From the NCBI RefSeq assembly GCF_030463535.1, contig NC_132896.1, forward strand, positions 32,107,680-32,171,679: a stretch of DNA of 64,000 bases. Direction: 5' to 3'. The translations under genes and the position numbers were made by a program. How positions within the stretch are numbered: position 1 is the stretch's first letter; each line of letters begins with the position of its first letter. The stretch is from Salminus brasiliensis (lineage: Eukaryota; Chordata; Actinopteri; Characiformes; Bryconidae). Below the pieces are notes generated by a model. That model saw only the letters and a program-made list of their open reading frames with translations. It ran no database searches and was not told where the DNA came from. This document shows positions 17,871 through 62,336 of this stretch, in pieces.

Positions 17871-20800
17871 CTAGCTCCTCCAGCAGCTGCAGCCCCAGTT
17901 CCCCCGCTGCTGCTCCTCCTGCTCATTCCGCCCTCCCAGCGTGACGGTGTTGCCCCCAGCTGCCAGCTGGCTCAGCACCAGGGGCTTCTGGGACTTCAGC
18001 TTGTGCGCCACCGTCATGAAGATGGCCTCTACGTGGTCGCTGCTGTTGCGGCCGCCCTCCGGGTTCTTGGCCGAGGTCTCGAAAAGGGGCATGGACTGGG
18101 CGTCTGCGAACTGCTGCGCCACCTCCGTGCTCACCTGAGCCAGGTGCCGTAGGTCGCACTTGTTGCCCACCAGGATCCGGGGCACCTCCTGGCCCAGGGC
18201 GTGCTGCCGGCACTCCTCGATCCAGGCCGGAAGGCTCCGGAAGCTGGCGGCGCTCGTCACGTCGTACACGAACACGACGGCGTGCACGTTGCGGTAGTAA
18301 TGCTGCACCATGCTCTTGCGGAAGCGCTCCTGTCCCGCCGTGTCCCACAGCTGGACCTGAGGGAAGAACGGAGAGCGGTCAGCGTTCGGCCAATAACCGG
18401 CCAACACAGTAACTGTCCAAAAGTTTGCGGACACCTACTTAGCAAACATTTCTTCTGTAATCACGGGAGTTCGGCTCCCTTTACTAAAGCTACAGCCTTT
18501 GGGAAGGCTTTACACTAGGATTTTACACTAGTACACTAAAACATTGCTGTGAGGATCTGATTGCATTCAGCCCCAGCCACTGCACTTGCCTCGTTATCTG
18601 CTACAGTATTTTGTTATAATTGAATAATTGTTCCAGACATGAGTAGCTCTGCCCTTTCTGTTTTTCGCACTGCATTATGGGATAACAGTGTCCATTATAA
18701 CCCCATAATCCTCAAAAAAGGGTATCTTGGCTACTCAACTTTGACACTTTCCTCTATACTACATACTAAATACTCAAAAAGTAGCTAGTATTAGTAATTA
18801 GTACGCAATTCAGACGCGTTCCTTTTACTGCTGATCTGGAAACAGCTGTTAATTATAATTTATACCACTAAACTATCCGATTATTGAATTTTAGGAGCCA
18901 TAAGGAGAGTGTATGATACAGAGAGAAAGCCAGAGACCGAGGGGGCGAGTGGAGGGGCGAGGATTCACAGTGCTGAGACGCTTTTGTCCTCCCAGCAGTG
19001 GAGAACAAACAGCGCGAGTGTGTTGGTGAGTAAACAGGGACATGACCGGAGGAGTGTGTGCTGGAGGGGCAGCGTGGGCGCCTCACAGAGAGTACCAGAG
19101 AAATATCACAGGGATTCAGTGTCAGTGTGGAGCAGCAGCAGCTGCACAGAAATAGAGCAGATGATGATCTGCGATTTCAGCGACAGGCACACCGAGGAGC
19201 TTCGTACCTCATAGACATGCAGATCTCAGGCCTGCTACTGCGGCTGCTCAGCACACACTTCAGAGAAAGGGAGGGAGGGAGATTCCCGCCTCCTGGAGTC
19301 CATCTGCACTCATGGTTTGGTGTTTTTCCTGCATTTCGGTCACTATTAGCTAAACATCAAGTACTCCAGTCCAGTCCAGGTTCAATTTCATCTCATTTTC
19401 AATAACTTATGCATGAAAATATCTTGGTTTAATAGAACAACTGCAACAGTTGCATATATGTGCATCACAGTGGGTTCATAAAACGCTGAATTTGAGGCCC
19501 TGAAACAACCCTAAACCTTGTATATACCTCTCCATGTATCAGCCATGCCCAAAAATACATGGCAGGGCTGGGTTGATGGCCAACCTTCTCCCCATCCCCA
19601 TCCCTCCCAGGTGTGATGATGGTCAGCACAGGTGTCTGTTGGCTGCTGTATCGGAGCTGAGGAGCCATGGCCTGTAGATCTGGGTGAATCTCAGGTGGGT
19701 CTCAGACCAGCTCAAGCTCAAGCCAATCGAACTGGTCAAGCTGGTAAACCAGTATGTGGTGTTTGATGGTTTAGCTGGCCTTCCAGCATGACCCACCTGA
19801 CTAAGCTAAAGCTAGTCAACCAGTATGATCACGCTCAAGGGTTCAAGGGTTGACCTGCTGCTGCTGCTGCTGCTGCTGCAGCCTGACCACGCCAGTCAAA
19901 CTGACCAACTAGCATTCGCCAACCAGTATGACCAGCTTGCTGACCAGCTTTTCAACCACACTGACCATCAAAGGCCAGCTCAGACCATCTACCAGCATCA
20001 TGAGCTGGGTATTCATAAGCAACGTGTCCCTCGTGGCTGCAGCAACAGCCTCTACTCTTCTGGGAAGGCTTTATATTAGATATTGGAACACTGCAGCTGT
20101 GAGGATTTGATTGCATTCAGCCACGAGAGCATTAGTGAGGTCAGGTACTGATGCTGGATTGGTCCCACAGGTGAATACTGTACCATCAGATCTACCTGTC
20201 TGCCTGTTTACCTGTCTGTCTGTCTACCTGTCTGTTTACCTGTCTGCCTCTCTACCTGTCTGTTTACCTGTCTGTCTACCTGTCTGTTCACCTGTCTGTT
20301 CACCTGTCTGTTCACCTGTCTGTCTGTCTGTCTACCTGTCTGTCTGTCTGTCTACCTGTCTGTCTGTCTACCTGTCGGTCTGTCTACCTGTCGGTCTGTC
20401 TGTCTGGCTACCTGTCTGTTTACCTGTCTGTTTACCTGTTTACCTGTCTGTCTGTCTACCTGTCTGTCTGTCTGTCTACCTGTCGGTCTGTCTACCTGTC
20501 GGTCTGTCTGTCTGGCTACCTGTCTGTCTGGCTACCTGTCTGTCTGGCTACCTGTCTGTTTACCTGTCTGTCTGTCTGTCTACCTGTTTACCTGTCTGTC
20601 TGTTTACCTGTCTGTCTGTCTGTCTGTCTACCTGTCTGTTTACCTGTCTGTCTGTCTACCTGTTTACCTGTCTGTCTGTCTACCTGTCTGTCTGTCTATC
20701 TGTCTGTCTACCTGTTTACCTGTCTGTCTGTCTGTCTACCTGTCTGTCTGTTTACCTGTCTACCTGTCTGCTCACCTTAATTTTCTCCCCGTCGATCTCT

Positions 20801-21484: not shown

Positions 21485-23545
21485 GACACCATGTAGGCCA
21501 CTAAAAGAGCATGTATGTACCCAAGAAAACCCCATGCATGTACCCCAAAACAATATGCACAAACCCCCAAAACACTGTGCATGTCCCACAAACACCATTA
21601 ATGTACCCCAGGACACCATGCATGTACCCCCAACCACCATGCATGTACACTACAACACTGTGCATGTACACTAAAACACTGTGCCTGTACCCCAAAACAC
21701 TGTGCATGTACCCCAACCACCATGCATGTACACTACAACACTGTGCCTGTACCCCAAAACACTGTGCATGTACCCCAAAACACCATGCATGTACCCCAAC
21801 CACCATGCATGTACACTAAAACACTGTGCCTGTACCCCAAAACACTGTGCATGTACCCCAAAACACCATGCATGTACCCCAACCACCATGCATGTACACT
21901 ACAACACTGTGCCTGTACCCCAAAACACTGTGCATGTACCCCAAAACACCATGCATGTACCCCAACCACCATGCATGTACCCAACCACCCTGCATGTACA
22001 CTAAAACACTGTGCATGTACCCCAAAACACCATGCATGTACCCCAACCACCATGCATGTACACTAAAACACTGTGCCTGTACCCCAAAACACTGTGCATG
22101 TACCCCAAAACACCATGCATGTACCCCAACCACCACGCATGTACACTACAACACTGTGCCTGTACCCCAAAACACTGTGCCTCTCCCACAAACACCATTA
22201 ATGTACCCCAAGACACCATGCATGTACCCCAACCACCCTGCATGTACACTAAAACACTGTGCCTGTACCCCAAAACACTGTGCATGTACCCCAAAACACC
22301 ATGCATGTACCCCAACCACCATGCATGTACACTAAAACACTGTGCCTGTACCCCAAAACACTGTGCATGTACCCCAAAACACCATGCATGTACCCCAACC
22401 ACCCTGCATGTACACTAAAACACCGTGCCTGTACCCCAAAACACTGTGCCTCTCCCACAAACACCATTAATGTACCCCAAGACACCATGCATGTACCCCA
22501 ACCACCATGCATGTACACTAAAACACTGTGCCTGAACCCCAAAACACTGTGCATGTACCCCAAAACACCATGCATGTACCCCAACCACCATGCATGTACA
22601 CTAAAACACTGTGCATGTACATCAAATCACCATGCAGGTCACTAAAAGACCATGCATGTACCCCAACCACCATGCATGTACACTAAAACACTGTGCATGT
22701 ACCCCAAAACACCATGCATGTACCCCTAAACACTGTGCATGTACCCCAAAACACCATGCATGTACCCCTAAACACTGTGCATGTACCCCAAAACACCATT
22801 ACATCAAACCACCATGCAGGTCACTAAAAGACCATGCCTATACCACAAACACCATGCATGTGTGCTAAAACACCATGCATGTACCCCAAAATCATATGCA
22901 TGTACAATAAATAATATAATTGCACCCAAAACACCATGCATGTACCCCTAAACAATGTGCATGTACTCCAAACACTATAAATGCACCCCAAAACCCCATG
23001 CATGTTTCCCAAAACAATTATGTATGTACAACACACACCATGCATGTACACCAAGACACTGTGCATGTACATTAAACTGCATGCATGTACCCCATCCACT
23101 CTACATGTACACTAAAACACCATGCATGTACATTAAACTGCATGCATGTACCGCGAACACTTACACTGTGTGCTAAAACACAATGCCTGCACCCCAAAAC
23201 AATATGCATGTACAACAAATAACATGAATGCACCCAAAACACCATGCATGTACCCCTAAACACTGTGCATGTACAACACACACCATGTGTGTACACCAAG
23301 ACACTCTGCATGTACAATAAAACTCCATGCATGTACACCAAAACACCATGCAGGACACTAAAACTCCATGCATGTAGCCCAAAACACTATGAATGTACAA
23401 CACACACCATGCATATACACCAAGACACTCTGCATGTACACTAAAACACCATGCATGTACACCAAAAGACCCCACAGGTCACTAAAAGACTATGCATGTC
23501 CATCAAAACAGCATGCATGTACCCCAAAGACAATGCACATGTGCC
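21485..23545 (+). repeat. 20-21-bp minisatellite with an 83-bp higher-order unit
   Basis: Tandem monomers of the type GCATGTACCCCAAAACACCAT and GCATGTACACTAAAACACTG fill about 2 kb. In the left half, four monomers (20+21+21+21) form an 83-base unit; CACCATGCATGTACACT starts at 21718, 21801 and 21884. The right third (after about 22850) is more diverged. Both strands give open frames of up to about 170 codons (HVPQNTMHVPQPP-like), because most monomers are 21 bases. The array sits between the divergent start sites of rab33b and mlsl. Confidence 0.95.
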
Positions 23546-23803: not shown

Positions 23804-23866
23804 TTGTAGACTGCTCCAGTATTTGTGCACCAGCAAGGGGCGCTGAGGCCGTGCAATGACAGCAGC

Positions 23867-24924
23867 ATGCTAACACTGAGGAGCAATGTCTTTTATTGGC
23901 ACACACAGACACCCAGAGGTGTAGATGTGGAGCCTCCTCCTGCGGGGCTGCAGCTGGAGTTCCAGACCCTCTTCACTACTGAAGCTCTGCACTTTCTGTC
24001 TGATTTGTGCTCCACCTTCCAACCAGAGGTGGACAAGGTGAGTGAACAGGGGACCTAACAGCAGCAGTAACAGTGGCAGTGTAGCACCGCAGGTCACGGC
24101 TCTCTGTTTTGTTCATCAGGCCTTGAAGCTTAGAATTCTCCGAAAGGTTCAGCTGGATTTGACCGGAGAGCTGCCGGACTTCAGTGCGGACACGGCTCAC
24201 ATCCGCAACGACCCCTCCTGGAGAGTCAGCCCTGTCCCTCCTCGACTGCGGTGCAGACATGTGGACATCGGTGACCTTGCACCCTGTGACACGCAGCGTC
24301 TCATTCAGGGCCTCAGGTCTAAAGCTCAAGGAATACAAGTACGTCTGGACCAATACCTAGACATGTTTGTGGACAGACTAGACTGCACACCAACCAGCCA
24401 TAACATTAAAACCAGGTGAAGTGAATAGCATTGATTATCTGGGTCAGGTGGCATCTGTCAAGGGGTGGCTAGAGCCAAGCGAGACGACTTGGTCAGGCAG
24501 GTCTTGTGGGATGTTCCCGGTTGCAATGACCCTGGAGGCAGGGTCACGGGCACCCAAGGCTCACTGATGTGATCCATAGAGGCCCCACCTCACAATGTCC
24601 AGGAGTTGGAAGGATCTGCTGCTAATGTCCATGTCTCAATGGTTTAGAGCTGTTTTGGTGGCTCAAGGGGGGGCTTCACAATATTAGGCAGGTGGTTTTA
24701 ATATTATGGCTGATTTGTCAGTTATTATTGAAAATAATATCAATATTTATTAATATATAAAGGGATAGGGATCTAGATCTAGTTCTTGAATGGTAGTGAA
24801 GCTATAAAGAAGCTATATGAGATATTGATCACACAGGTAGATGCAAATTACAGGCAGATGGTAGTGCAGATCTTCGATGACACAGGTTTATTTGATAGGA
24901 AAAACATTTATTATAATATTATAT

Positions 24925-25006
<82 letters not shown>

Positions 25007-28000
25007 TAGGTGGATTTCGATGATGGAAACTGCCCAACATACTACAATCAGATTAAAGGCATCTATAATGTGTATCAGGCTGTACACAACCAGTTTAATG
25101 GTGAGTACTGGCATCCCTGTGTATGATGTATAATCTTTAACTGGACCATTAGGAGCAGGGGTGGTAAACCTGCGAACAGGCGCCCAAGGCTCACCGATGC
25201 TAATGGAGGCCCCACCTCACAATAAAGGATCTGCTGCTAACGTCTCGGTGGCAGATACCACAGGACACCTTCAGAGGTGTTGTGGAGTCCATGCCTCAAC
25301 GGTTCAGAGCTATTTTGGTGGCACGAGAGGGGCCTATGCAATATTAGCCAGGTGGTTTTAATGTTATGGCTGATTTGATCCTTAGTTATTAAATATCTGC
25401 TGCTAAAATCTTGGTGCCAGACACCAAGGGACAATATCTGTCAATCCGCTGTCGGAAACTGATGGTGTGGCTGTAATGACGGACGTCCGTTCAGTGAAAA
25501 AGTAAATAATTCGATTACAGTAGTGATGGCAGCCTCGAATTGAATCGATGAATCGATTCATTTGCAACTCTGTGTTTCGGCACATTGCTTCGAGCTCCAA
25601 ATCATAATGATGAAGTCATGTGACTGTTCATGTCATGAAACCACATTCATCCCAGTTGCTGATGCTGTTGTTTTGATGCTTAATTGGCCACCAGGTGTCA
25701 CTGTAGTGCGATGATTCCAACGAATCATCAGACCGAATCTTTTTCCGAATCGTTGTTTCAATTGTTTCATTTGCTTCAATCTCTCAAAAGCCCGACTCAT
25801 GCCATCTTTAAAAATAGGGGGAATACAAGCAGGACAGGGTGAAGTCATCCTATACAGATCAGCTCTCACTGTGTTTGTATCTAATGGAGAGCGAGGCCGT
25901 GTTTGTGAGACGCTGCTGTTGTTGACGATCGTCGTGACTTCTTCTTTCTCTTTTAATGACTCACATGGAGCTAGTTGAGTGTAACAGCGCCCCGGTACAG
26001 AATCTTCAGCTTGATTTCGGTGCACAGCTTAAAACAGCCTCAACTTTTCATACTAAGTTTGAAATGTACGTTTTTTTATTCTCTATTTTGGAGATAATGA
26101 AGTAGACGTTTGAAAAGTGCGGACCACGATTGACTGAGGCAAGGAGGAGAACTTAAGGAATTTGGGCTGGAGTTCTGGGGGGGGCTTAGAGCTGATGGGA
26201 CCCGAAGCCAGACCCCTCTTGCCAGGCAGAGGATGAATAAAATTGGACCATCGGGAGGAGCAAGGGCGGGTGGAGGGATCCGAATTTTCTTCAGGAGAGG
26301 GGAGAGGAGCAGCTGTATCGCGCATAGTAATGAAGAGGAGGAGTTGGGGCGTGGTCCTTCTCCTAAAGTGAAGGTGTCTTTGTCTTACCCCCTTATGTTG
26401 TCCCTTCCGGGTCTGTGTCTCTGTTTCGTCTTGCCTTGTTCACATCAGCACACGGCTCTGTTCATGTTTGGTTCTTGTCTCCGCCCCTAGCCCCGCCTTG
26501 TTGTTAGTGTTCCCACCTGTGCCTTCTTTGTAGGCCTGCCCCTCTTGTTAGCCTCAGGTGTTGCTTGTTGGTCTGTGTATAGGTACTTAGATAGCTTCAT
26601 GGTTAGTTTAGCTTAGCTTAGCTTAGCTTGTTTGGTTTCTGTGTGCTTGTCTCTTTTGTCACTTTTGTTCTCCAGTTTCTGTGGATCCTGTTTTGAAAAC
26701 CTGCCCCCCTCCCATAGTACTGTAACCTGTTATAGTATCTACGATGCTATACTGCTAGCTTGTGCCCCAGTTTCTCTGCCTGTGTGAGAATTCAAGCTAA
26801 TATCTGCACCATTTTCTTCCTCCTCCTCCACCAGAAGCACCTCCTCTGTCTCAGGCCCCGGTGCTGATGCTCCGCCCACGCGCATGGAACATGGTGGAGC
26901 ACAATTTAATGGTACTGATGCTGGCTGTACTCTCTCTGCTGATTCTCGTTTATAAAAGTGATGCTTATTATGCACATCTTCACAGTCCCACGAAGAGCTT
27001 GTATCTCCAAAATAGCAGCTTTACAGGAGAAGAAAAAAACCTTCTGAACATTCAATAGATGTCAATGTAAAAATATTTTATTCAGTCATTTTGGAGCATT
27101 TCTATTGGTCTGTTAATGATGAAATTCTGATACAATGTAAAAAAAACATCTGCCAGATTTACCTTAGGTCAAAAAGTGAGAAACGGGAAAATGGAGATGC
27201 AAGGTTTTTGCATGAGAGCGACGATATGCTATATGTACTGTATTTGATATTGGCATGTAAAGTTGCCTGTGTTGACTTGTGTAAGATAGAGCATCAAACA
27301 GAGTGTGCAGACTTTCTAGGTTGCACCTTCCTTCTAATTACACACTGTCAATAATACACTATAAGGACAAAAGTATTGGGACACCTGTTCATCATTCATT
27401 GTTTCTTTTAAAATCAAGGCTATTAAAAAGAGCTTAACCTGCTTTTATTGGAGTAACTGCTTCTACTGTCCAGGGAAGAAGGCTTTCTACTAGATTTTGG
27501 AGGAACATTGCTGTAAGGATTTGATTGCATTCAGCAACAAGAGCCTTAGTGATGTCAGGATGTTAGATGGTCACCACCCAAACTCATCCCCAACTCCTCA
27601 ACTCATCCCAAAAGAACTGGATGGAGCACCACAATCCATCATTCCAGAGAACACAGTTCTTCCACTGCTCCACAGCTCAATGCTGGGGGGCTTTATACCC
27701 CTCTAGCCCACACCTGGCATTTGGCAGCATGGTGCCGATAGGTTCATGTTTATCTGCTCAGAGAGTCCTATTCTATTGGCAGTACTTCTCTACAAGGACT
27801 AGATGAGCTGTATCAGCAATGGGTGCAACTTAAAGTAGCTGAATACATTCATTAGAAGGCGTGTCCACAAATATTTGGACATATAGTGCAGCATGTTTCT
27901 GATAAAGTGGCCAATGAGTTTACATATTTTTTGTGTGTTCATATGCAGGTAAATGGTCAGGAGGTCCCAGGTCCGCTCTTCGATTTCGGCCTGTTGATGT

Positions 28001-31000
28001 TCCATAATGCAAGGCTGCTGCTGGAGAACCAGAGCGGTCCCTTCTTCTATTTGTCCAAGGTCAGAGCAGCATGGTCTCCTGAGTCTGGGCTGGCCCAAGC
28101 CTTTATTAGGGGCCCTAAAGCAGATTTTCATTTGGGGCCCCCCATACCACCACCTTCATCATTCCATAGGGGGAGAGATATTGTGCAATACGCTGAAGCG
28201 CCCGAGCCTTTATCGACCATCCAAGTGGCGCGTATCTGCATTTGGCCAACAGTGGCAGCAGCAGCCAACAGCAGGAATTGAGCCAACTATGAAAGTAAAT
28301 TAATATAAAATCAATGTTTTTACCTGTGTAAAACTATTTCGTTTTATAATTCATTGTAAATTTTTAAATATGTATTTTTTATCATGATATCTTGGTGCTC
28401 TTGGGGGCCCCCTGGTTGCGTTGGTCAGCGTAATTCGAGTATGCCCTGGCCCGGCTCTGTCCTGAGCAGTGTTGAGGAATTTTTATATATGCAGTAGTAC
28501 CATCTAACTCAGACGTAGCCAATCAGCCAAATGTAGCTTCTTTAGTTTAGCGCCCAAGCTACAATGCTAATGTCGCTAACAATCTATAACTAGAAGTCTA
28601 GATACAGACTCCCAAAATCATTTCCATAAATACATCATCACACGCTTCTCTCAACCCCCTCAAACCCCATCCAGGTCTTCATTATGGTGGTGCAGATGTG
28701 CTGATGTGGTTGATTTAGGGTGCAGGTAAGACCTGCTTTTGCTGCTAGCTGGTATCAGATGGCTCAAGCTGGTCTAAAATGGTCAAGATGGTTAAAACGC
28801 TGGTCATCCAGGTGAAAACGTACCCCACCCTATGCTGGAGAGCAAGCTGGTTAAAGCGGTTGACCAGTTTAGCCCTTGAGCAGCATGTAGCGTATGCCTT
28901 TATTTGAGTTTGGTGGACTAGCTAACCTATCAGCATGGTCAACTTGACCAAGCTGGTCTTCAAGCAGGACATACTGGTTGACTAGTAAGTAGTGAGTAAA
29001 TGCTGGTTCAGCAGTTGGACTAGCGTGGTCAGGACCAGCTAAACCATCAAACTCAAACAGACCCAATGCTGGTCAAGGGATAAGCTGGTCAACCAGCTTT
29101 CACATGGAGGACCAGCTTGAAGATCTGAAGGAGTTTCTACAACATCAGCGTGTCTCTGATTGTACTGTGGATCCACTCTGGTGGTCCTTACGGCCTCAAA
29201 AATCCCAGCCACACTTCAGCATGATGGTGTTTGGTTTCCAGGAGCAGAAGCTACTGTAGATAATGGGTTACTTGTCGTTTTTAGGTTGAAAGCCACCTGG
29301 AGGCGAGACTCTGGAATCAGGTTTTTCTCTGGGCAGAGGAGAAGGTAAAGACTTCTGCTTCAGCTGAAGTTTCTTATTCAGCATTTCATGCTCTTCCAGT
29401 CTTCACGGTACCTGTATGACGTTTTCTGTGTGTGACAGCTCAGCCTGCCAGCGGGCAGTATAAAGGCGACGGTGCTGATTGAGTGTGTTCTGGCCTCGTT
29501 TGAGATGGAGGAGATTCTGTATGAGCTGCGAGAGCATTCTGCAGGTTTGAACTGCGGCATCTGGGATTACTCGGCTTCCTTCGTGAACAAACTTGGTCAG
29601 TTTCTGAATTTATTGACAGTAAATATTTTGGGAAGCACTTTAAAATACGACTTTTCTTATCAATGGTTTGATATTTGCTTATAAACGGACCTCACGGATT
29701 ATTAATAAGCAGTTACAGCGCAATTAAAAAGGGCCCAGCAGTGAGCCCTTTTTCGTCTCTACTGTTAAAGCTTAGATGTTGCTGCTCCTGGTCTCCATTT
29801 GTCTCGTCTATCAGTCAGTGCTAAAGCTTAAGGAGGTCAAGGATCAGAATTTTAGTCCTAAATCATCATCTGATCTTCTTAATTTGATGTTCCTTGGCAT
29901 CTCAGAATGTCAGTGTCCGTGTTCAATGAGTTGTGAACACTTATAAACACCAAAAAAGGTCTTATTATTAAATGTAAACACATCAGTGTTTGTTAATGAG
30001 TTCCAAACATGAACATCAACAAGGCTGAAAATGTGAAGGCCAGCTTAGACCTTCCATTGCTCAGAGCTAGTAGTCAGTCTATATATTAATGTAGGCTAAT
30101 CAGACGATCATTAGTGGGTAATTAAAGCTTCTGTTGATCTCTGCTGAAGCTGACCAGTAGAACACTGACTGCTGGAGAACCCACAGCAAGATCAGGAACC
30201 AGCAACCTCTAAGCTTGAACAGTATGGAGGAATGTGGGCTCACTGTTTGGAAAGCAACAGGTCACCGCTGGCCTTTTTATGTAGGCCTCGGTGTAATAGA
30301 GCTGCTTACGAAGGTCCTTAAGGTGCTTAAGGTACATATTTTCACCATTTATAAGACCTTTATAAGGGTAGTCTTGTTATAAAGTGAGACACATGACACT
30401 TCTGACCCCTGCAGGTCACCGGGCTGAGTTCCTGCTCCCTGACCGCAGCAAGTACGTGAACATGGAGAAGCGTTTCCTGCGCAGCTACATGGACCTGCTG
30501 GTGCAGACGTGCCATCGCAGGGGCGCCCTGGCAACCGGCGGTATGGCTGCGCTGCTGCTGCCCAGAGACAAGCAGAGCGACCTTTACAAGACCGTAGTGA
30601 CCGCTGTCACCAGGCAAGAGATGATGCACTTAGTACCAGAGTTAGTGGTGGCCACAATAAGACGGGCAAGGCCCTGTTGAGCAGCACAGCCCTAATGATC
30701 GGATGTGACGCATTTCAATATTCTGGTATTTCAGACTGAAGCTGCTGGAAATCCAGGCTGGGGTCGACGGCTTCATGGTGTATGACTTGGACCTGATTGA
30801 GCCCATGCAAAAGGTGAGTGCAACATGTGAGACAGGTGTCTACAAACGTTTGGACTGATAGGCCAAACATTGGGGTTTCTCTCATCCACCTGCATTAAAA
30901 ACACACGTATGTCCTCACTCTCTCTGTCTTGGTCTTCCACTCAGCTGTTCCGGCTTCATTCCCAGGGAGAGAATCAGCTCCAGCAGCTGCGAGAGGACGT

Positions 31001-34000
31001 CATTGTGACCCCTAAAGACCTGCTCACTATGCCAGCGGTCAGTCAAGCCAGATCAGATGCTTCTATTATAGGATATAGACACATATTATATAAATGGGAT
31101 TGAAGTGCATGGTTATGTGTTGTTTATGCTGGAACAGGGTTTGGATTTGGGGACTAAATTTAATCCTGGAAACCCCATCCCATTCCATCCCAGAGCACCC
31201 CACCCCACCCCATCCCCATCCCAAAACATCCCCATCCCTATCCCACCCCATCCCTGCCCACCTCATTCCATCCCAGCCTATCCCACCCAATGCCAGCCCA
31301 TCCCAGAAAACCCCGTCCCAGAACACCCCATCCCAACCCACCTCATTCCAATCCACCCCACCCCATCCCACCCCACCCCATCCCCATCCCATCCCACCCC
31401 ATCCCCATCCCATCCCATCCCATTCCAGCCCATCCCAGAAAACCCCGTCCCAGAACACCCCATCCCTGCCCACCTATTTCCAATCCACCCCATCCCTTAC
31501 CATCCCACCCAATGCCAGCCCATCCCAGAACACCCCATCCCTACCCACCTCATTCTAATCCACCCCATCCCATCCCCATCCCAAAACACCCCATCCCCAT
31601 CCCAAAACACCCCATCCCATTCCATCTCAGCCTATCCCACCCAATGCCAGCCCATCCCAGAAAACCCCATCCCAGAACACCTCATCCCTACCCACCTCAT
31701 TCCAATCCACCCCATCCCATACCATCCCAGAACATCCCCATCCCACCCCATCCCATCCTAGCCCAGCCCATCTCACCACCCCCCAACTCATTCTCTGCAG
31801 GTTCATGTTCTTGCAGGACCCAAATGGGATGGGCTGGATCTAATGGATCTAGTATCTGTAGTTTCTGCGTAATCAATCACAATGTCGTTACAATGCAACC
31901 TCTCCTTCTCCAGGGTGGAGTAACACTGTACGGGCTGAAGTACAACATTGCCGTTGGGGTGCTGTTCATCAACACTTGGCTTTCAGGTAAAAAAAAAACC
32001 AAGAAATGTAATAACGCCATGCTTAAGGTTTTTATTTGAGTTTGATGGCGTAGCCACCAGTCCACCAGTATGATCAGCTCAACGATTAATCAAAGACCAC
32101 CTTAGGCCATCTGAAACCATCCACCAGCAAAAGCTGAGATATCAGCAGGGCACTTTAAGCTTAGATATTTCTCTGTGCTCTGGGAGCTTCATGGCATGTT
32201 TGGGCCGCATCATGCAAGCCTTACGTTATGTACGTTAAGAGTTATGTGAATTGACGAATCACGCTTCCCTATCTGGCTCTGATGTACGAGTCTGGATTTG
32301 GAGAACCCAAAATGCCAGGAGAACGGTACCTGCCTGGCTGCACTGTGCTGCACCAATTGTAAAGTTTGGTGGAGGAGGGATAATGCTACAGAGTTGTTTT
32401 TCCAGGGCTGGCCTATAAATCTTACTTCCTCAGCAGCTAACCCAAGATATATTAGACAAGGAAGGCCCTATTCTGTTCCAGCATGACTGACTGTGCTCCA
32501 GTGCACAAAGCAAGGTCCATAAAGGCGTGGGTTGGGTGAATTTGGTGTGGAAGAACTTGACTGGCCCGCACAGAGCCCTGACCTCAACCCCATCAAACAC
32601 CTTTGGGATGAACTAGAACAGAGATTGTGTAAGTGTCCCAATACTTTTGCGACATCTCTGAAACCGCTAACTTCAGTGGATGTTCTAGAGCCACCACTGT
32701 GGCGCCCAGTGGGTCAGTGATACTAGAGGGGAACGATGACTCGTGGGAGTGGACCAGTTAACCTCTATAACACAAATGACTGGGTTACTTTATCTGACAG
32801 GCAGAGGGCATTTCTTCTACAAGGGCCAGGTGGAGGACTCGGCCACTGCAGAGATCTCCAGATCTCAGGTGGGTTTGGGTCTTTCAAAGCTGTGTTGTCC
32901 TTCTTCATTTTCCATTTAGTGAAACAGTTTTGTTGAGCAGTGGTTAAAGAACCTCAATGACTTGCCTGACTCTGGTTTAGGTGTGGCAGTGGATTCGGCA
33001 CCAGGTGAAACTGGAGGATGATGGGAGGTCTGTAACCCGTGGGTTGGTCAGGAGCCTGACAGAAGGTCTGATGGTGGATCTGAGGGCAGCTACAAGTTGT
33101 CGGACACAACGGTAGAGTATCTACTACCATCGACTGATGCTACAGACAAAAGAAAGGTCTGCCTCATCCAATCAAAGTATGGACTCCACAAGACCTCTGA
33201 AGGTGTCCTGTGGTGTCTGGCACCAAGACATTGTCCTGCAAGTGGCAAGGTGGGACCTTATCTCCTGTTGAAGCTGATGTGTAGTGTAGTGTACTCAAGG
33301 CATCTGGCAATACACCACATGTCCAAATGTTTGTGGACACCCTTTCGTCACTTCAGTTGCACCCATTGCTGACAAGATGTGCAAATGCACACACAGCTTG
33401 TCTAGTCCCTGTAGGGAAATACTGCCAATAAAATAGGACTCTCTGGAGCAGATCAACATGAACCCATGAACTGGCACCATGCTGCCTAATGCCAGGTGTT
33501 GACTGGAGGGGTATAAACCCCCCAGCATTGACGGAACTGGGTTCTCTGGAATTATGGATGGTGGTGCTTCACCCAGTACTTTCAGGATGAGCTGAGAAGT
33601 TGGGGATGATGAGGTGGTGTGGTGATCATCCAGCATCCTAAACTCTCAAACACTCTTGTGGCTGAAGGCAATCAAATCCTCACAGCAATGCTCATCCAAA
33701 ATCTAGCAGAACGCCGCCTTCTCTGGACAGTAGAGACAATTACTCCAACAAAAGCAGGACAAACTCCTTTTAATACCCTTGATTTCAGAGAAACAATGAA
33801 TGAGCAGGTGTCCCAATACTTTTGGCCATATAGTAAATCTGGTAAATCATCTCTTTAAAGAACCCTATCTGGAACCTTTATTTTCTGAAATGACTGCCAA
33901 TACATATACCTGCTCTTTCTACCCTTACAGAGATGAAGAGAGGTTGACAACAGCCATGTCCATCTTTCTGGAGGTGGTTCAGAAGAGCCATTTCCCAGAG

Positions 34001-34099
34001 TTCCTCACCACCTACCTGTACCTGGACCACACCTTCCTGAGCTCACAGGGTAAACACGAGCACAGCAGAGCAGATGGACCTTCCAAGGCGAGGCTTTAA
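23867..34099 (+). CDS. mlsl: Malate synthase (animal type), 14 exons, 565 aa
   Basis: Exons: 23867-24037, 24120-24338, 25010-25100, 26835-26911, 27949-28059, 29285-29344, 29439-29595, 30415-30613, 30735-30813, 30945-31037, 31914-31986, 32801-32868, 32981-33111, 33931-34099. All phases match, giving 565 codons, the usual size for malate synthase A (about 540-560). The enzyme condenses glyoxylate with acetyl-CoA to malate. Motifs: [11 protein letters not shown] (173-183) with the substrate Arg; [16 protein letters not shown] (253-258); [18 protein letters not shown] (264-281) and WDY (285-287) with the acidic metal ligands; [26 protein letters not shown] (454-466) with the likely catalytic Asp456. 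The protein ends ARL, a peroxisomal PTS1-type tripeptide. Intron 8 is GC-AG (donor AG|GCAAGAG at 30613/30614). The N-terminus ([12 protein letters not shown]) is the least certain part. No stop or frameshift is seen. Confidence 0.93.
24394..24714 (+). mobile_element. Non-autonomous DNA element with CAGCCATAACATTAAAACCA termini
   Basis: It opens with CCAGCCATAACATTAAAACC and closes with GGTGGTTTTAATATTATGGC, which are inverted repeats. Relatives are at 25147-25378, about 33170-33270, 39222-39605 and 62975-63182. This terminal sequence is common in teleost genomes. It lies in mlsl intron 2. Confidence 0.7.
24927..25006 (+). repeat. (TA)n plus T-tract in front of mlsl exon 3
   Basis: About 37 bases of TA are followed by about 40 consecutive T, and then GTAG and the exon at 25010. 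The T run serves as the polypyrimidine tract. Confidence 0.95.
25147..25378 (+). mobile_element. Second copy of the CATAACATTAAAACC-type element (5' truncated)
   Basis: It has CGCCCAAGGCTCACCGATGC, GAGGCCCCACCTCACAA and GGTGGTTTTAATGTTATGGC. The left terminal repeat is missing. Located in mlsl intron 3. Confidence 0.65.
25480..26030. mobile_element. hAT-like non-autonomous element fragment
   Basis: Clustered GAATCGATGAATCGATTCA-type words, the phrase GGCCACCAGGTGTCACTGTAG and AATCATCAGACCGAATC are typical of degraded hAT-derived repeats in fish. Its boundaries are uncertain. It lies in mlsl intron 3. Confidence 0.35.
27357..27888 (+). mobile_element. Tc1/mariner-like MITE family A, most complete copy (532 bp)
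   Basis: It begins CACTATAAGGACAAAAGTAT and ends ATTTGGACATATAGTG, so its termini are imperfect inverted repeats with the CACTATA...TATAGTG form. It is flanked on the left by TA. Inside are all family blocks (TCAAGGCTATTAAAAAGAGC; GTAAGGATTTGATTGCATTC; GGGGGGCTTTATACCCCTCT). It is non-coding, in mlsl intron 4. Confidence 0.85.
31165..31790 (+). repeat. C-rich CCCATCCC minisatellite in mlsl intron 10
   Basis: About 620 bases are built from CCCATCCCAGAACACCCCATCC-like words with almost no G on the plus strand. The minus strand is therefore a series of GGG and GGGG runs able to form G-quadruplexes. Pro/Ser/His-rich frames over it are artefacts. Confidence 0.95.
32225..32660 (+). pseudogene. Tc1/mariner transposase remnant
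   Basis: A frame at about 32532-32630 reads [20 protein letters not shown], the signature around the second catalytic residue of Tc1-type DDE transposases. Upstream, at 32298-32400, are matching nucleotide remnants (GGAGAACGGTACCTGCCTG; GTTTGGTGGAGGAGGGATAA). It is broken and truncated and lies in mlsl intron 11. Its right end runs into the AGTGTCCCAATACTTTTG terminus that also ends family A. Confidence 0.75.
33310..33836 (-). mobile_element. Tc1/mariner-like MITE family A, copy in reverse orientation
   Basis: It runs from CACATGTCCAAATGTTTGTG to CAATACTTTTGGCCATATAG, the reverse complement of the 27357-27888 copy with all internal blocks. It lies in the last mlsl intron. Confidence 0.85.
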
Positions 34100-34368: not shown

Positions 34369-34860
34369 AAACGGACAAAAGTATAAGGACACCTGCTCAT
34401 TCACTCGCTCTTCGGAAATCAAGGGTATTAAAAAACAGTTGATCCTGCTTTTGGGATGAGTTGGGCTAGAGGGGAATGCTCTAGCTGCTGAATGCAAGCA
34501 AATCCTCACAGCAATTCCCCTCCAAAATCTAGTAGAAGGCTGTCTCTTAGATTCTGGGGGAGAATTGCTGTGAGGATTTGCTTGCATTCAGCAGCAAGAG
34601 CGCTAATGAGGTCAGGTCAGGATGTTGGATGATCACCACCCCAACTCATGCCAAAAGTACTGGATGAAGCATCACCATCCATCATTCCTGAGAACACAGC
34701 TCTTCCACTGATCCACAGCTCAATGCTGGGGGGCTTTATACCCCTTTATAAGCCCACGCCTGGCATTATTAGGCAGCATGGAGTCAATAGGTTCATCTTT
34801 ATCTGCCGCAGAGTCATAATCTATTGGCAGTGCTTCTCTACAGGGACTAGATGAGCTGTG
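34369..34860 (+). mobile_element. Tc1/mariner-like MITE family A, downstream of mlsl
   Basis: ACGGACAAAAGTATAAGGAC at the left, then CAATGCTGGGGGGCTTTATA and CTCTACAGGGACTAGATGAG. An internal inverted duplication (AATCCTCACAGCAATT near 34501 and GAATTGCTGTGAGGATT near 34562) is unusual for the family. Confidence 0.75.
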
Positions 34861-36544: not shown

Positions 36545-51668
<15,124 letters not shown>

Positions 51669-54479: not shown

Positions 54480-54720
54480 TTACATTTACATTTACATTTA
54501 TGGCATTTAGCAGACGCTCTTATCCAGAGCGACTTACAAGGTAACTCGTATTACAGAGGTGGGCCAATGTAGTGTTAGGAGTCTTGCCCAGGGACTCTTA
54601 TTGGTGTAGCGCAGCATAGTCACCCAGACCGGGAATCGAACCCTGGTCTCCCACATGGTGTTGTTGTAACGCAATGGTAGGTGGTGGTGTTATCTGTTGC
54701 GCCACACCAACCACTACAGT
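54480..54720 (+). mobile_element. Interspersed repeat (SINE-like) in the ndufc1 3' UTR intron
   Basis: TTTACATTTACATTTATGGC, then TTTAGCAGACGCTCTTATCC and AGAGCGACTTACAAGG, ending with a tRNA-like segment GGGAATCGAACCCTGGTCTC near 54630. The module is widespread in teleosts. Confidence 0.65.
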
Positions 54721-57541: not shown

Positions 57542-60500
57542 GATGAGTATATGTATTTTTCTATCTAGTGCATTCCTGATCAGCTGTGTCTGGCTGGGCC
57601 TGGCTGGGCCTGGCTGGGCCTGGCTGTGTCTGGCTGTGTCTGGCTGTGTCTGGCTGGGCCTGGCTGGGCCTGGCTGGGCGTCTCTCTGTAGAGCCCAGGC
57701 CGGCTGTGGTTCAGGGCCATGGCCGCTCATACACAGTATTTAATAACTGGCTCTACACACTGCACAAATGTAGGAGTAGTAAGTTGCATAGTAGTGTGTT
57801 AATGCTGGTTAAGAGCCAGGAGAGAGCTGATAAGAGCTTAAAGAAGCCCCCCCTGCACACACACCCACCCATGTACTGCACTGTCAGTGGTTAAAAACGT
57901 TATTAAAACATTATTATCCAGGCATTTCTTCAATTAATTTGACTAAAACATCATTTTTGATCAGTTGTCATGGTTCTAGTTATCTAGCTCTTCTAATGAT
58001 TGCAGGTCACCTTTATGGATATTAAGATAAACAGTGTATTAATGTAGTTATAGATGTTGATTATAATTATGCAGAATAAATATAAATTAATATAAATAAT
58101 AGGCAAGATTTTTTTTTACTTTAAACCATTATAACAGTTTAATCCTAATTATTTTAACACCATTTATTTATTTATTTTGCTTTGCACATCTTGACTTGAC
58201 TTTTATCATAATTAATAGTAGTACAGGTAGGAGAGGAATTCTGTATGGATTAGATATGAAGAATTAGGACAGTTTTGCAGTTGTTGACCCTTCAATGCAT
58301 GTGTGAATTGAATGTTGTATAATAACATAGAATAGAAAAGGTTTTCAACGAATGTCAACGTACAAGTAAATGTCTTTTTTTTAATTATTTTTATTGTATT
58401 TAAAAATGGCTATAATAAATTATATTGCACAGATTAATATATTGTATTATATAGTTTATACAAATAAAATTATGGATGCCAGCACATAAATAAGTAAGTC
58501 AAGTCAAGTGGGTTTTATTGTCAGTGCAGACAGATACAGTACAACACAGTACAGACGGAGAATAATAAATAAATTAGGGGTAGTGTGCAAATTATGCAGT
58601 GTGCAATAAATATTGAGTCCAGTGAGGTAGTAAAGTAATAATGGGGTAATGTACAGTAGTAATAGCACTAGTACAGTGTAGTAACACCTCATACAGTATG
58701 CTAATGTGTTACCAGTGCTTTACTAACACAAGTGAAAGTGGTACTTATGGTACTTATGGTACTTATGGTACTTGTACTCAGCTTCTCCACCCATCTCCCC
58801 TAAGAAACCCGGTGTGATTAGTGACGCAGCGCTGTGGCTCTACTGCACGCTCACTCTCTCTGTACTGTTTGACTCCTAAACCAGATTAGCAGATTAGCCG
58901 GTATAAATAACACCGTAGTGTCTGGAGCTCTGTGACTGACCGGATTACGAGTGAGAAGATAAGCACCATTTCTTTTATTGTCCTCTAGAGGAACCGTCCT
59001 GTGGAGTACAGTACAGTCCAGTCCTCACGTTGATTTTCTGGTCCCTTGATCATTCTGTGACCGTTTGACCACAGCCGTGGATTTGCTCAGGGAGGACGGG
59101 TCTGATAAGGACGCTGCAGGTCTGCGCGTGCAGAGCCGAGGCGGACACGAGTCCAAGCTGCTTCTGTAGTAAACAGAACTTCTGACCTTAGGGTTGGGCT
59201 CGGATGGAATTAGTGTAAGTGAAGAGGACGGTGGAAACGGACGTCCTCCTGGGGTCAGAAGAGTCGAGGCTTTACTGAAAGGTGTTTAAAATGAAAGATA
59301 TGCTGGGATTTTATTAAATTCTGCTTTTTAATTAAAAAATTACTAAATTCATTTGTCTCTAAAAGCTTGACAAATTGTCCTTTATGGTTCTCAGTTGTGG
59401 TTTAAGAAAATAAAGTACATATTTATCAATATTTTGATGTATTCTAATATTTTTAGTTAAAATATTAAGTATTATTAGGTATTTTTTTAAGTATTATTTA
59501 AAGACAGTTACATATAAGTGCCTTTTGATGAGAGTCACTATTTTGGATGTCAGAATTTCAGTACACAGGGCAAAAGACTGAACATTAGTAAGTAGAGAAG
59601 CTAAGAGGCTAAGTCTAAATATTGAGACAGTAAGTGATCACCATCAGCTATGGTCTCAACAACATGGACTTGGTATGCAAATATAATGACTTACTTTATT
59701 ATTTGTTTTTGTTTTAAAATTGAAATGTAAAGTGATGTAGTGCTACTTCTTTATGATCTGGGCGGGGGTCGCGAGTTTGAATCCAGAGCCGTGCCTCTCT
59801 GCCATCAGCGTCCGGAGCCTGAGAGAGCACAATTGGCCGTGCTCTCTCCGGGTGGGTAGATGGTGCTGTCCCTCATCCCTCTTAAAGCAATATTGGCCGG
59901 CACAGGCATCTGTTAGCTGAAGTGGTGGTGCTGGGGACCTGGTGCTTTGCCTTCCTCAGAGCGTTTTGGTTGCCCTGCAGTGCCAGACAGGGGCTGGATT
60001 CACATGTATCAGAGGGAGGTATGAACGGGTGGGTTAGTTGGCAGGAATTTGGAGGAAAATTTGATAAAAAATGTATTAAAAAATAAAATAAAATAAGATT
60101 TGCATCAGATTTGAGCATTATTGTTTGTGTCTAAAGACCTTTTCCTCGTATTTAAAGAGACGAGGTTGGTGACTGAGTTGAATTCCAGCGTTAGCCTAGC
60201 ATCTAAAGTATCATGTGTCCAATATCTAATATTTTGGCGGATCATCTGCAACTGGTCAAAGTGATATTCATCATATTAATTAAATTATTTATTAATATAT
60301 ATTTACATTACATTTACATTTACGGTATTTAGCAGACGCTCTTATCCAGAGTGACTTACAAAGTGCTTTGCTATTTACCCAAGAAAAGCCTTAGCTAGTT
60401 AGAATAGACCAATAAATCAAAGGATGCCTCCAAGCTTAGACATTACTATATATATATATATATACTATAATAAATATACATTATTTATTATTAATTTACG

Positions 60501-62336
60501 AATGTAATTATTTAAATAGTATTTTATAATTAATAAAAAATAAAGTTGTCTAAATTTATTTCCTCTGTGTTTTTTTTTCTTTTTTCTGTACAGTCGTTCC
60601 TCGGAGGCCCATGTCATCAGTTCCAGGCGGCTCGGGCGAAAATATCCTGTATGTAGTCCTGTGTGGCGGCGCCTTCGCCGGAGCTCTGACATATGTGAGT
60701 CCTTCTGCTACTTCAGCATTAATTCGTCCCTGCAGGGAAAAATAAGCCGATTTTATGAATTATTTATTGATGGTTTGTTTATTTTGTTTTATAAATTAGG
60801 CCTACAGTACTGTGACGTCCGACAGCGCCCGCTTTACTGACCGCATTGCAAATATCGAGGCCCGGCCCAAGGATGACTGGAAGCCCAAGCAATGGCCACC
60901 GAAGAGTAAGTCTACCTCACTCTCAGTAACACAGCTCTCCAACCCACCCTGGGACAGCGTTCCCGTTTGGAATGGTTTGACATCTTGGTGCGTTAAATGC
61001 GGGTGACCGAACTAGTCAGCTAGTAAATCAGTTACCATGATGGCAGACACTTGAGTGCTGCCTGAGGAGGATTAGGTAAAAGGTCACATTCTGTATCCAG
61101 CAGTGTGTGTATTTATAGCCCAGTGTCCAAACACCTGAAAACGGAGCTGAGTGAGTTTGTGAAGGGTTTCTCACCAGACAGGGCCTTATCTGAGCTCCTA
61201 ACGCCGTCCCTGCAGGATCAGAGGACGAAATACCACGTTAAACGTGGACTAAAGGGAAAATATCAGCTGGAGTTATTCATATTCACCTAATGTCAGCTAG
61301 AGTAGGGGACGTCTGACTAACGGCGGTTAGAGTAAGGGACGTCTGACTAACGGCGGTTAGAGTAGGGGGCGTCTGACTAACGGCGGTTAGAGTAGGGGAC
61401 GTCTGACTAACGGCGGTTAGAGTAGGGGACAACTGACTAACGGCGGTTAGAGTAGGGGACGTCTGACTAACGGCGGTTAGAGTAGGGGACTTCTGACTAA
61501 CGGCGGTTAGAGTAGGGGACGTCTGACTAACGGCGGTTAGAGTAGGGGACGTCTGACTAACGGCGGTTAGAGTAGGGGACGTCTGACTAACGGCGGTTAG
61601 AGTAGGGGACGTCTGAACAAACGGCGGTTAGAGTAGGGGACGTCTGACTAACGGCGGTTAGAGTAGGGGACGTCTGACTAACGGCGGTTAGAGTAGGGGA
61701 CGTCTGACTAACGGCGGTTAGAGTAGGGGACTTCTGACTAACGGCGGTTAGAGTAGGGGACGTCTGACTAACGGCGGTTAGAGTAGGGGACGTCTGACTA
61801 ACGGCGGTTAGAGTAGGGGACGTCTGACTAACGGCGGTTAGAGTAGGGGACGTCTGAACAAACGGCGGTTAGAGTAGGGGACGTCTGACTAACGGCGGTT
61901 AGAGTAGGGGACGTCTGACTAACGGCGGTTAGAGTAGGGGACGTCTGACTAACGGCGGTTAGAGTAGGGGACGTCTGACTAACGGCGGTTAGAGTAGGGG
62001 ACGTCTGACTAACGGCGGTTAGAGTAGGGGACGTCTGACTAACGGCGGTTAGAGTAGGGGACGTCTGACTAACGGCGGTTAGAGTAGGGGACTTCCGACT
62101 AACGGCGGTTAGAGTAGGGGACGTCTGACTAACGGCGGTTAGAGTAGGGGACGTCTGACTAACGGCGGTTAGAGTAGGGGACAACTGACTAACGGCGGTT
62201 AGTCTGAACGGGTTTGGGTCTGAACCTCGGGTTCTGTGTTTCAGATATTTACTGATGCATTTTTCTAATTAAGGCTTTATTATAATGCCTGTTTACCGTT
62301 GTGTTTTTCTCTGTTTAGGCCAGGATGGAGGTGACA
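56369..62336 (+). CDS. mgarp: MGARP-like mitochondrial protein, first four coding exons (3' end beyond the window)
   Basis: Exons 56369-56447, 60594-60694, 60800-60905 and 62319-62336 join in phase. MGARP is an integral mitochondrial protein linked to mitochondrial distribution and steroidogenic or hypoxic responses. The N-terminus (MFAVRAAWRRCAVHQALAVR) is basic and amphipathic, as in a mitochondrial presequence. It is followed by RRPMSSVPGGSGENILYVVL, a membrane span to about residue 60, and AYSTVTSDSARFTDRIANIE, which matches the conserved TVTSDQAKHTEH-type block of mammalian MGARP. The last exon seen is an 18-base microexon coding QDGGD between split codons, with donor GTGAGT. The acidic C-terminal region that names the family is not in the window. 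The identification rests on the conserved block and on the position next to ndufc1. Confidence 0.85.
57179..57455 (+). repeat. G-rich purine tract, GGGGAGTGGAGGG repeats, mgarp intron 1
   Basis: About 275 bases almost without pyrimidine, made of GGGGAGTGGAGGGAGAGGA-like units. It gives long Gly/Glu and Pro/Ser frames on the two strands, which I regard as artefacts. It is followed by (GT)n at 57496-57538. Confidence 0.95.
57585..57682 (+). repeat. 10-bp minisatellite TGGCTGGGCC / TGGCTGTGTC
   Basis: About nine tandem 10-base units in mgarp intron 1 alternate between two variants: three TGGCTGGGCC, three TGGCTGTGTC, then three TGGCTGGGCC or a close variant. Confidence 0.9.
58740..58778 (+). 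repeat. 10-bp tandem repeat TACTTATGGT
   Basis: About four copies, the last one variant, in mgarp intron 1. It is short and non-coding. Confidence 0.85.
59755..60070 (+). mobile_element. tRNA-derived SINE, second copy of the 16500 family
   Basis: GGGTCGCGAGTTTGAATCC (B-box), AGCACAATTGGCCGTGCTCT and CCGGGTGGGTAGATGGTGCT. It is in mgarp intron 1. Confidence 0.6.
61290..62205 (+). repeat. 30-bp minisatellite in mgarp intron 3
   Basis: About 30 tandem copies of a unit read ACGGCGGTTAGAGTAGGGGA then CGTCTGACTA. Variant units recur at fixed distance: CTTCTGACTA at 61490 and 61731, and GAACAAACGG near 61614 and 61855, both 241 bases apart. The array therefore grew by copying an eight-unit block. 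A minus-strand Ser/Pro/Thr frame over it is an artefact. Confidence 0.95.

Follow-up and report, generated by a model that had tools for sequence, protein, structure and literature searches.

Malate synthase genes were reported by Kondrashov et al. 2006 (PMC1630690) in several fish, a frog, the opossum and apparently the platypus, and the same paper described pseudogene remains in placental mammals, gave isocitrate lyase among sequenced animals only for nematodes and cnidarians, and asked what an animal malate synthase does. The zebrafish protein Mlsl (PMC8919083; ENSDARG00000074684 in PMC5191836) has been presented as a fish peroxisomal candidate which is absent in human (PMC8919083), while the dysregulated expression of its gene in a glucocorticoid-deficient, glyoxylate-accumulating mutant was described as rescued by dexamethasone (PMC5191836). 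Here, a malate synthase gene of the fish Salminus brasiliensis was analysed in a 64,000-nucleotide stretch of DNA (contig C19, positions 32107680-32171679; referred to as the window, whose numbering is used throughout), and the 1.07-Gb genome (103 contigs) was scanned in addition. The gene is the already published vertebrate gene and presents no anomaly; the finding adds one intact copy and sharpens the question raised in 2006 as to the role of an animal malate synthase without isocitrate lyase. The S. brasiliensis gene is, by published description, like zebrafish Mlsl in belonging to the malate synthase family and in ending with the PTS1-type tripeptide ARL, and like the coelomate orthologues of PMC1630690 (fish, frog, opossum, platypus and sea urchin) in having an intact, intron-bearing frame in a genome without a match to isocitrate lyase. 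We favour, with a probability of roughly 0.6, the reading that the product of this malate synthase-like gene (mlsl in zebrafish) is an A-type malate synthase of the peroxisome, which removes glyoxylate that does not come from isocitrate.

A frame of 565 codons without internal stop was obtained when 14 exons of the forward strand (23867-34099) were spliced in phase, and the remaining two frames of the identical spliced sequence were found to contain 28 and 24 stops. Exon 1 (23867-24037) was given its start codon at 23867 from the sequence alone, with an upstream in-frame stop at 23807, and is followed by a GT donor. Exons 3 (25010-25100), 5 (27949-28059), 6 (29285-29344), 10 (30945-31037) and 11 (31914-31986) were placed by the splice model, and exon 14 together with the stop codon occupies 33931-34099. 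All 13 introns have AG acceptors and 12 of the 13 have GT donors; the donor of intron 8 at 30614, directly after exon 8 (30415-30613), is GC (CAG/GCAAGA). GC donors of the CAG/GCAAG type are ordinary. The orthologues of PMC1630690 were described with GT...AG at all introns, from which the present gene differs by this one donor. The longer form of exon 13 (32981-33111) adds 28 residues, and the 565-amino acid length is considered correct because, with these residues, the protein reached 390.1 bits instead of 375.8 against its best PDB chain, and 82.0 bits instead of 62.7 for the C-terminal Pfam domain. A model of 537 amino acids with a shortened exon 13 was rejected for its poorer family fit.

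The 565-amino acid protein was screened against Pfam and PDB. Three Pfam domains were identified in order, all above curated cut-offs (MS_N, E = 9.8e-6; MS_TIM-barrel, E = 1.5e-70; MS_C, E = 5.9e-23), and at an E of 0.001 the PDB matches comprised two distinct sequences only, both of them malate synthases (E = 1.3e-115 and 1.7e-97). The malate synthase A match (E = 1.7e-97) spans residues 33-536 and, together with the TIM-barrel score, excludes a chance match. The Escherichia coli malate synthase A (PDB 3cuz, 3cv1, 3cv2) is 41% identical over a 449-amino acid stretch and is without the extra C-terminal tail that carries ARL in the fish protein. A genome-wide search with the TIM-barrel family (E = 0.001) returned three matches, corresponding to exons 5, 7 and 8 of this locus, and no second copy was seen in the whole genome by this family search (the best four candidates were scored); the TGA at 29433-29435 within one of these matches is intronic and precedes exon 7. 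The preliminary description of this DNA had proposed 14 in-phase exons encoding a full-length malate synthase of 565 amino acids without stop or frameshift; the spliced frame proved open throughout, and the identity was borne out by the three Pfam domains and the PDB malate synthases.

The residues on which catalysis would depend are kept in the fish protein. Exon 4 (26835-26911) encodes two conserved arginines, of which Arg174 (26873-26875), and not Arg176, is taken by us to be the catalytic one. Exon 7 (29439-29595) carries Glu258 (29481-29483) and Asp286 (29565-29567), which align with the magnesium ligands, and exon 12 (32801-32868) carries Asp456 (32836-32838), which aligns with the catalytic base. 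The assignments follow PMC3112382, where an Arg, a Glu and an Asp are named as binding glyoxylate and magnesium and a further Asp as the base; the E. coli numbering used here, and with it the assignment of the PDB chains to E. coli, was likewise taken from that paper, in which residue numbers exceed the PDB chain index by one, a relation that fits at six named positions. The pocket residues Ile94 and Met330 of the E. coli enzyme are also kept, as Ile107 and Met339. The tripeptide ARL (34088-34096, in exon 14) stands at the C-terminus.

No candidate for isocitrate lyase (PF00463) was found at an E of 10 in the whole-genome search, in an assembly which may be incomplete and in which masked stretches read as N (8 of 14 control genomes gave a match); the same type of search did detect malate synthase exons. 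The earlier statement that no isocitrate lyase is visible therefore now holds for the whole-genome search, and the accompanying statement, that malate synthase-like genes are known from some fish and other non-placental vertebrates, agrees with what is reported in PMC1630690. Because of the absent isocitrate lyase match, the enzyme would act outside any glyoxylate cycle. Purine breakdown as a source of glyoxylate was proposed in PMC8919083 and named as possible in PMC3743077. Sequence resembling allantoicase (PF03561) occurs in open frames of the genome, with three matches above cut-off within 5 kb at 60.04 Mb of contig C1 (0 of 14 control genomes gave a match).

In the favoured reading, the ARL end would direct the enzyme, if expressed, into the peroxisome, where malate would be made from glyoxylate and the acetyl group of acetyl-CoA by means of the arginine, Mg2+ and the aspartate base. 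The glyoxylate would be formed in or near the peroxisome, from amino acids, by oxidation of glycolate or, via allantoicase, in the breakdown of purines; acetyl-CoA from beta-oxidation would be spent and usable malate gained.

Certain results weigh against removal of glyoxylate by a conventional malate synthase A, among them the replacement of residues which line the substrate pocket. In PMC3112382, a tryptophan is placed adjacent to the aldehyde carbon of glyoxylate in isoforms H and G, that of isoform H is described as closely contacting, with Pro231, the methyl group of pyruvate, and a helix-capping proline is placed against the CoA adenine in isoforms H, A and G (Pro 261, 369 and 538, respectively). 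Trp365 of the E. coli enzyme lies four residues before the proline, as in H and G, and for that reason is presumed to be the glyoxylate-side tryptophan. Trp365 and Pro369 align with Met376 (30775-30777) and Leu380 (30787-30789) of the fish protein, both encoded in exon 9 (30735-30813), so that the canonical tryptophan and proline of the substrate pocket appear to have given way to methionine and leucine. In exon 2 (24120-24338), residues 106-130 form an altered segment aligned with adenine-pocket residues, where Thr95, Gly96 and Met102 of the E. coli enzyme correspond to Leu110, Ala111 and Arg117, an alignment which is less certain because a two-residue insertion adjoins. A misplaced exon does not account for the changes in exon 9, since the flanking G-DG-V residues stay aligned. 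The comparison set comprised the best 80 of at least 497 bacterial relatives and one relative from a viral contig, and the patterns of the bacterial scan did not contain the motif DGTW[VI]AHP; tryptophan and proline were present at the two positions in 81 of 81, within DGTW[VI]AHP in 78 and within DGSWVAHP or DGAWVAHP in the other three. The viral-contig relative, the only one found in a separate scan of viral contigs, is of the bacterial type by this motif, and no animal-type relative was found among the viral contigs. Also counting against the favoured reading, the NCBIfam equivalog for malate synthase A (TIGR01344, a model for bacterial and archaeal annotation) gave an E of 1.8e-142 at 475.2 bits, below its cut-off of 594.5. 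Two of the three allantoicase matches cross stops (one stop in one, six in the other), which leaves a gene candidate only, although the stops probably reflect read-through of introns. Ureidoglycolate lyase (PF04115) had no match in the genome (1 of 14 control genomes gave a match), and as a result the step that would form glyoxylate is without an assigned enzyme.

These replacements could be accommodated if the malate synthase type of reaction were kept (a magnesium-assisted acyl-CoA enolate attacking a 2-oxo acid) with a different acceptor or donor, a possibility which we regard as real but minor. Without the tryptophan, the pocket may be more open on the side where the pyruvate methyl group is hindered in a known malate synthase, as the position of this residue in isoform H (PMC3112382) would allow, and the changes on the adenine side may alter the fit of CoA. 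The NCBIfam score below the cut-off may also be counted for this alternative. When 74 of the 80 bacterial proteins were aligned, 162 columns were at least 95% conserved, of which the fish protein agreed at 118 and differed at 44 (42 substitutions and 2 gaps); exons 2 (11 of 25), 4 (7 of 12) and 9 (8 of 14) accounted for 26 of the 44, while the four catalytic positions were kept. Part of these differences may be general divergence, however, as the set is bacterial and the mean identity is 42.0% between fish and bacteria against 62.7% among the bacteria themselves. The retention of Ile107 and Met339 counts against this alternative, and PMC1630690 states that the animal proteins keep the conserved motifs (data not shown there) and reports no acceleration in the coelomate lineage. 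A more speculative and rather doubtful form of the idea is that the vertebrate enzyme, after isocitrate lyase was lost, rebuilt its acceptor side (Trp to Met) and its adenine side (Pro to Leu, with neighbours) around a kept catalytic centre, and now condenses an acyl-CoA with some 2-oxo acid in place of glyoxylate, or with glyoxylate under different kinetics. If this were true, the rebuilt pocket would explain both the lone survival of the enzyme in fish, frogs and marsupials and its later dispensability in placentals. Because the glyoxylate-side tryptophan and the adenine-side proline are replaced, malate synthase is used here as the name of a family, and glyoxylate is the presumed substrate. 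Beyond the papers cited, nothing further on the pocket or activity of an animal malate synthase was found among the literature matches listed, in a search outside which most subscription journals lay.

The same pocket changes in exons 2 and 9 might instead be read as relaxed selection on a gene which is open but decaying, a step towards loss of the placental type. The single GC donor could be counted in its favour, as could the losses recorded in placentals and apparently in chicken (PMC1630690). We consider this quite unlikely, since the 565 codons are free of stops and frameshifts, every acceptor is AG, and neither ARL at the C-terminus nor any of the four catalytic residues has been lost; the GC donor, in its CAG/GCAAG context, is of an ordinary kind. 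A bacterial origin of the gene, by contamination or by recent transfer, was rejected as next to negligible: the gene has thirteen introns, some of which hold repeats, vertebrate-type genes flank it on both sides, and its highest identity to any of the 74 aligned bacterial homologues (80 fetched) is just 44.6%. The replacement of the tryptophan and the proline may be regarded as the remaining point of interest, offered as a lead, and provides specific residues for comparison across vertebrates.

The gene is located between rab33b and naa15, which we presume to be neighbours in human also. An open frame on the reverse strand at 17871-18434 represents part of rab33b (Ras family; the best five PDB chains were all Rab-33B, E = 3e-64), and one at 39703-40266, also on the reverse strand, represents exons of naa15 (NatA_aux_su; NAA15, E = 7.9e-57). 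Gene order around vertebrate malate synthase was reported as conserved in PMC1630690.

Repeats were also observed in and around the gene. An array of about 2 kb (21503-23537), with a 21-base unit in about 98 copies, ends approximately 330 bases 5' of the start codon, and the intron before exon 11 contains CCCATCCCA-rich repeats (31165-31805) with long low-complexity open frames on both strands. A Rfam scan at gathering scores returned two UnaL2 long interspersed nuclear element (LINE) 3' elements on the reverse strand (54497-54550 and 60319-60372) and nothing beyond these. Two copies of a dispersed repeat, 90% alike over 115 bases, are present in intron 4 (27591-27705) and just 3' of the gene (34634-34748). 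A further array at 61298-62202 consists of a 30-base unit repeated 30 times, and is probably recent because its copies match at 97%.

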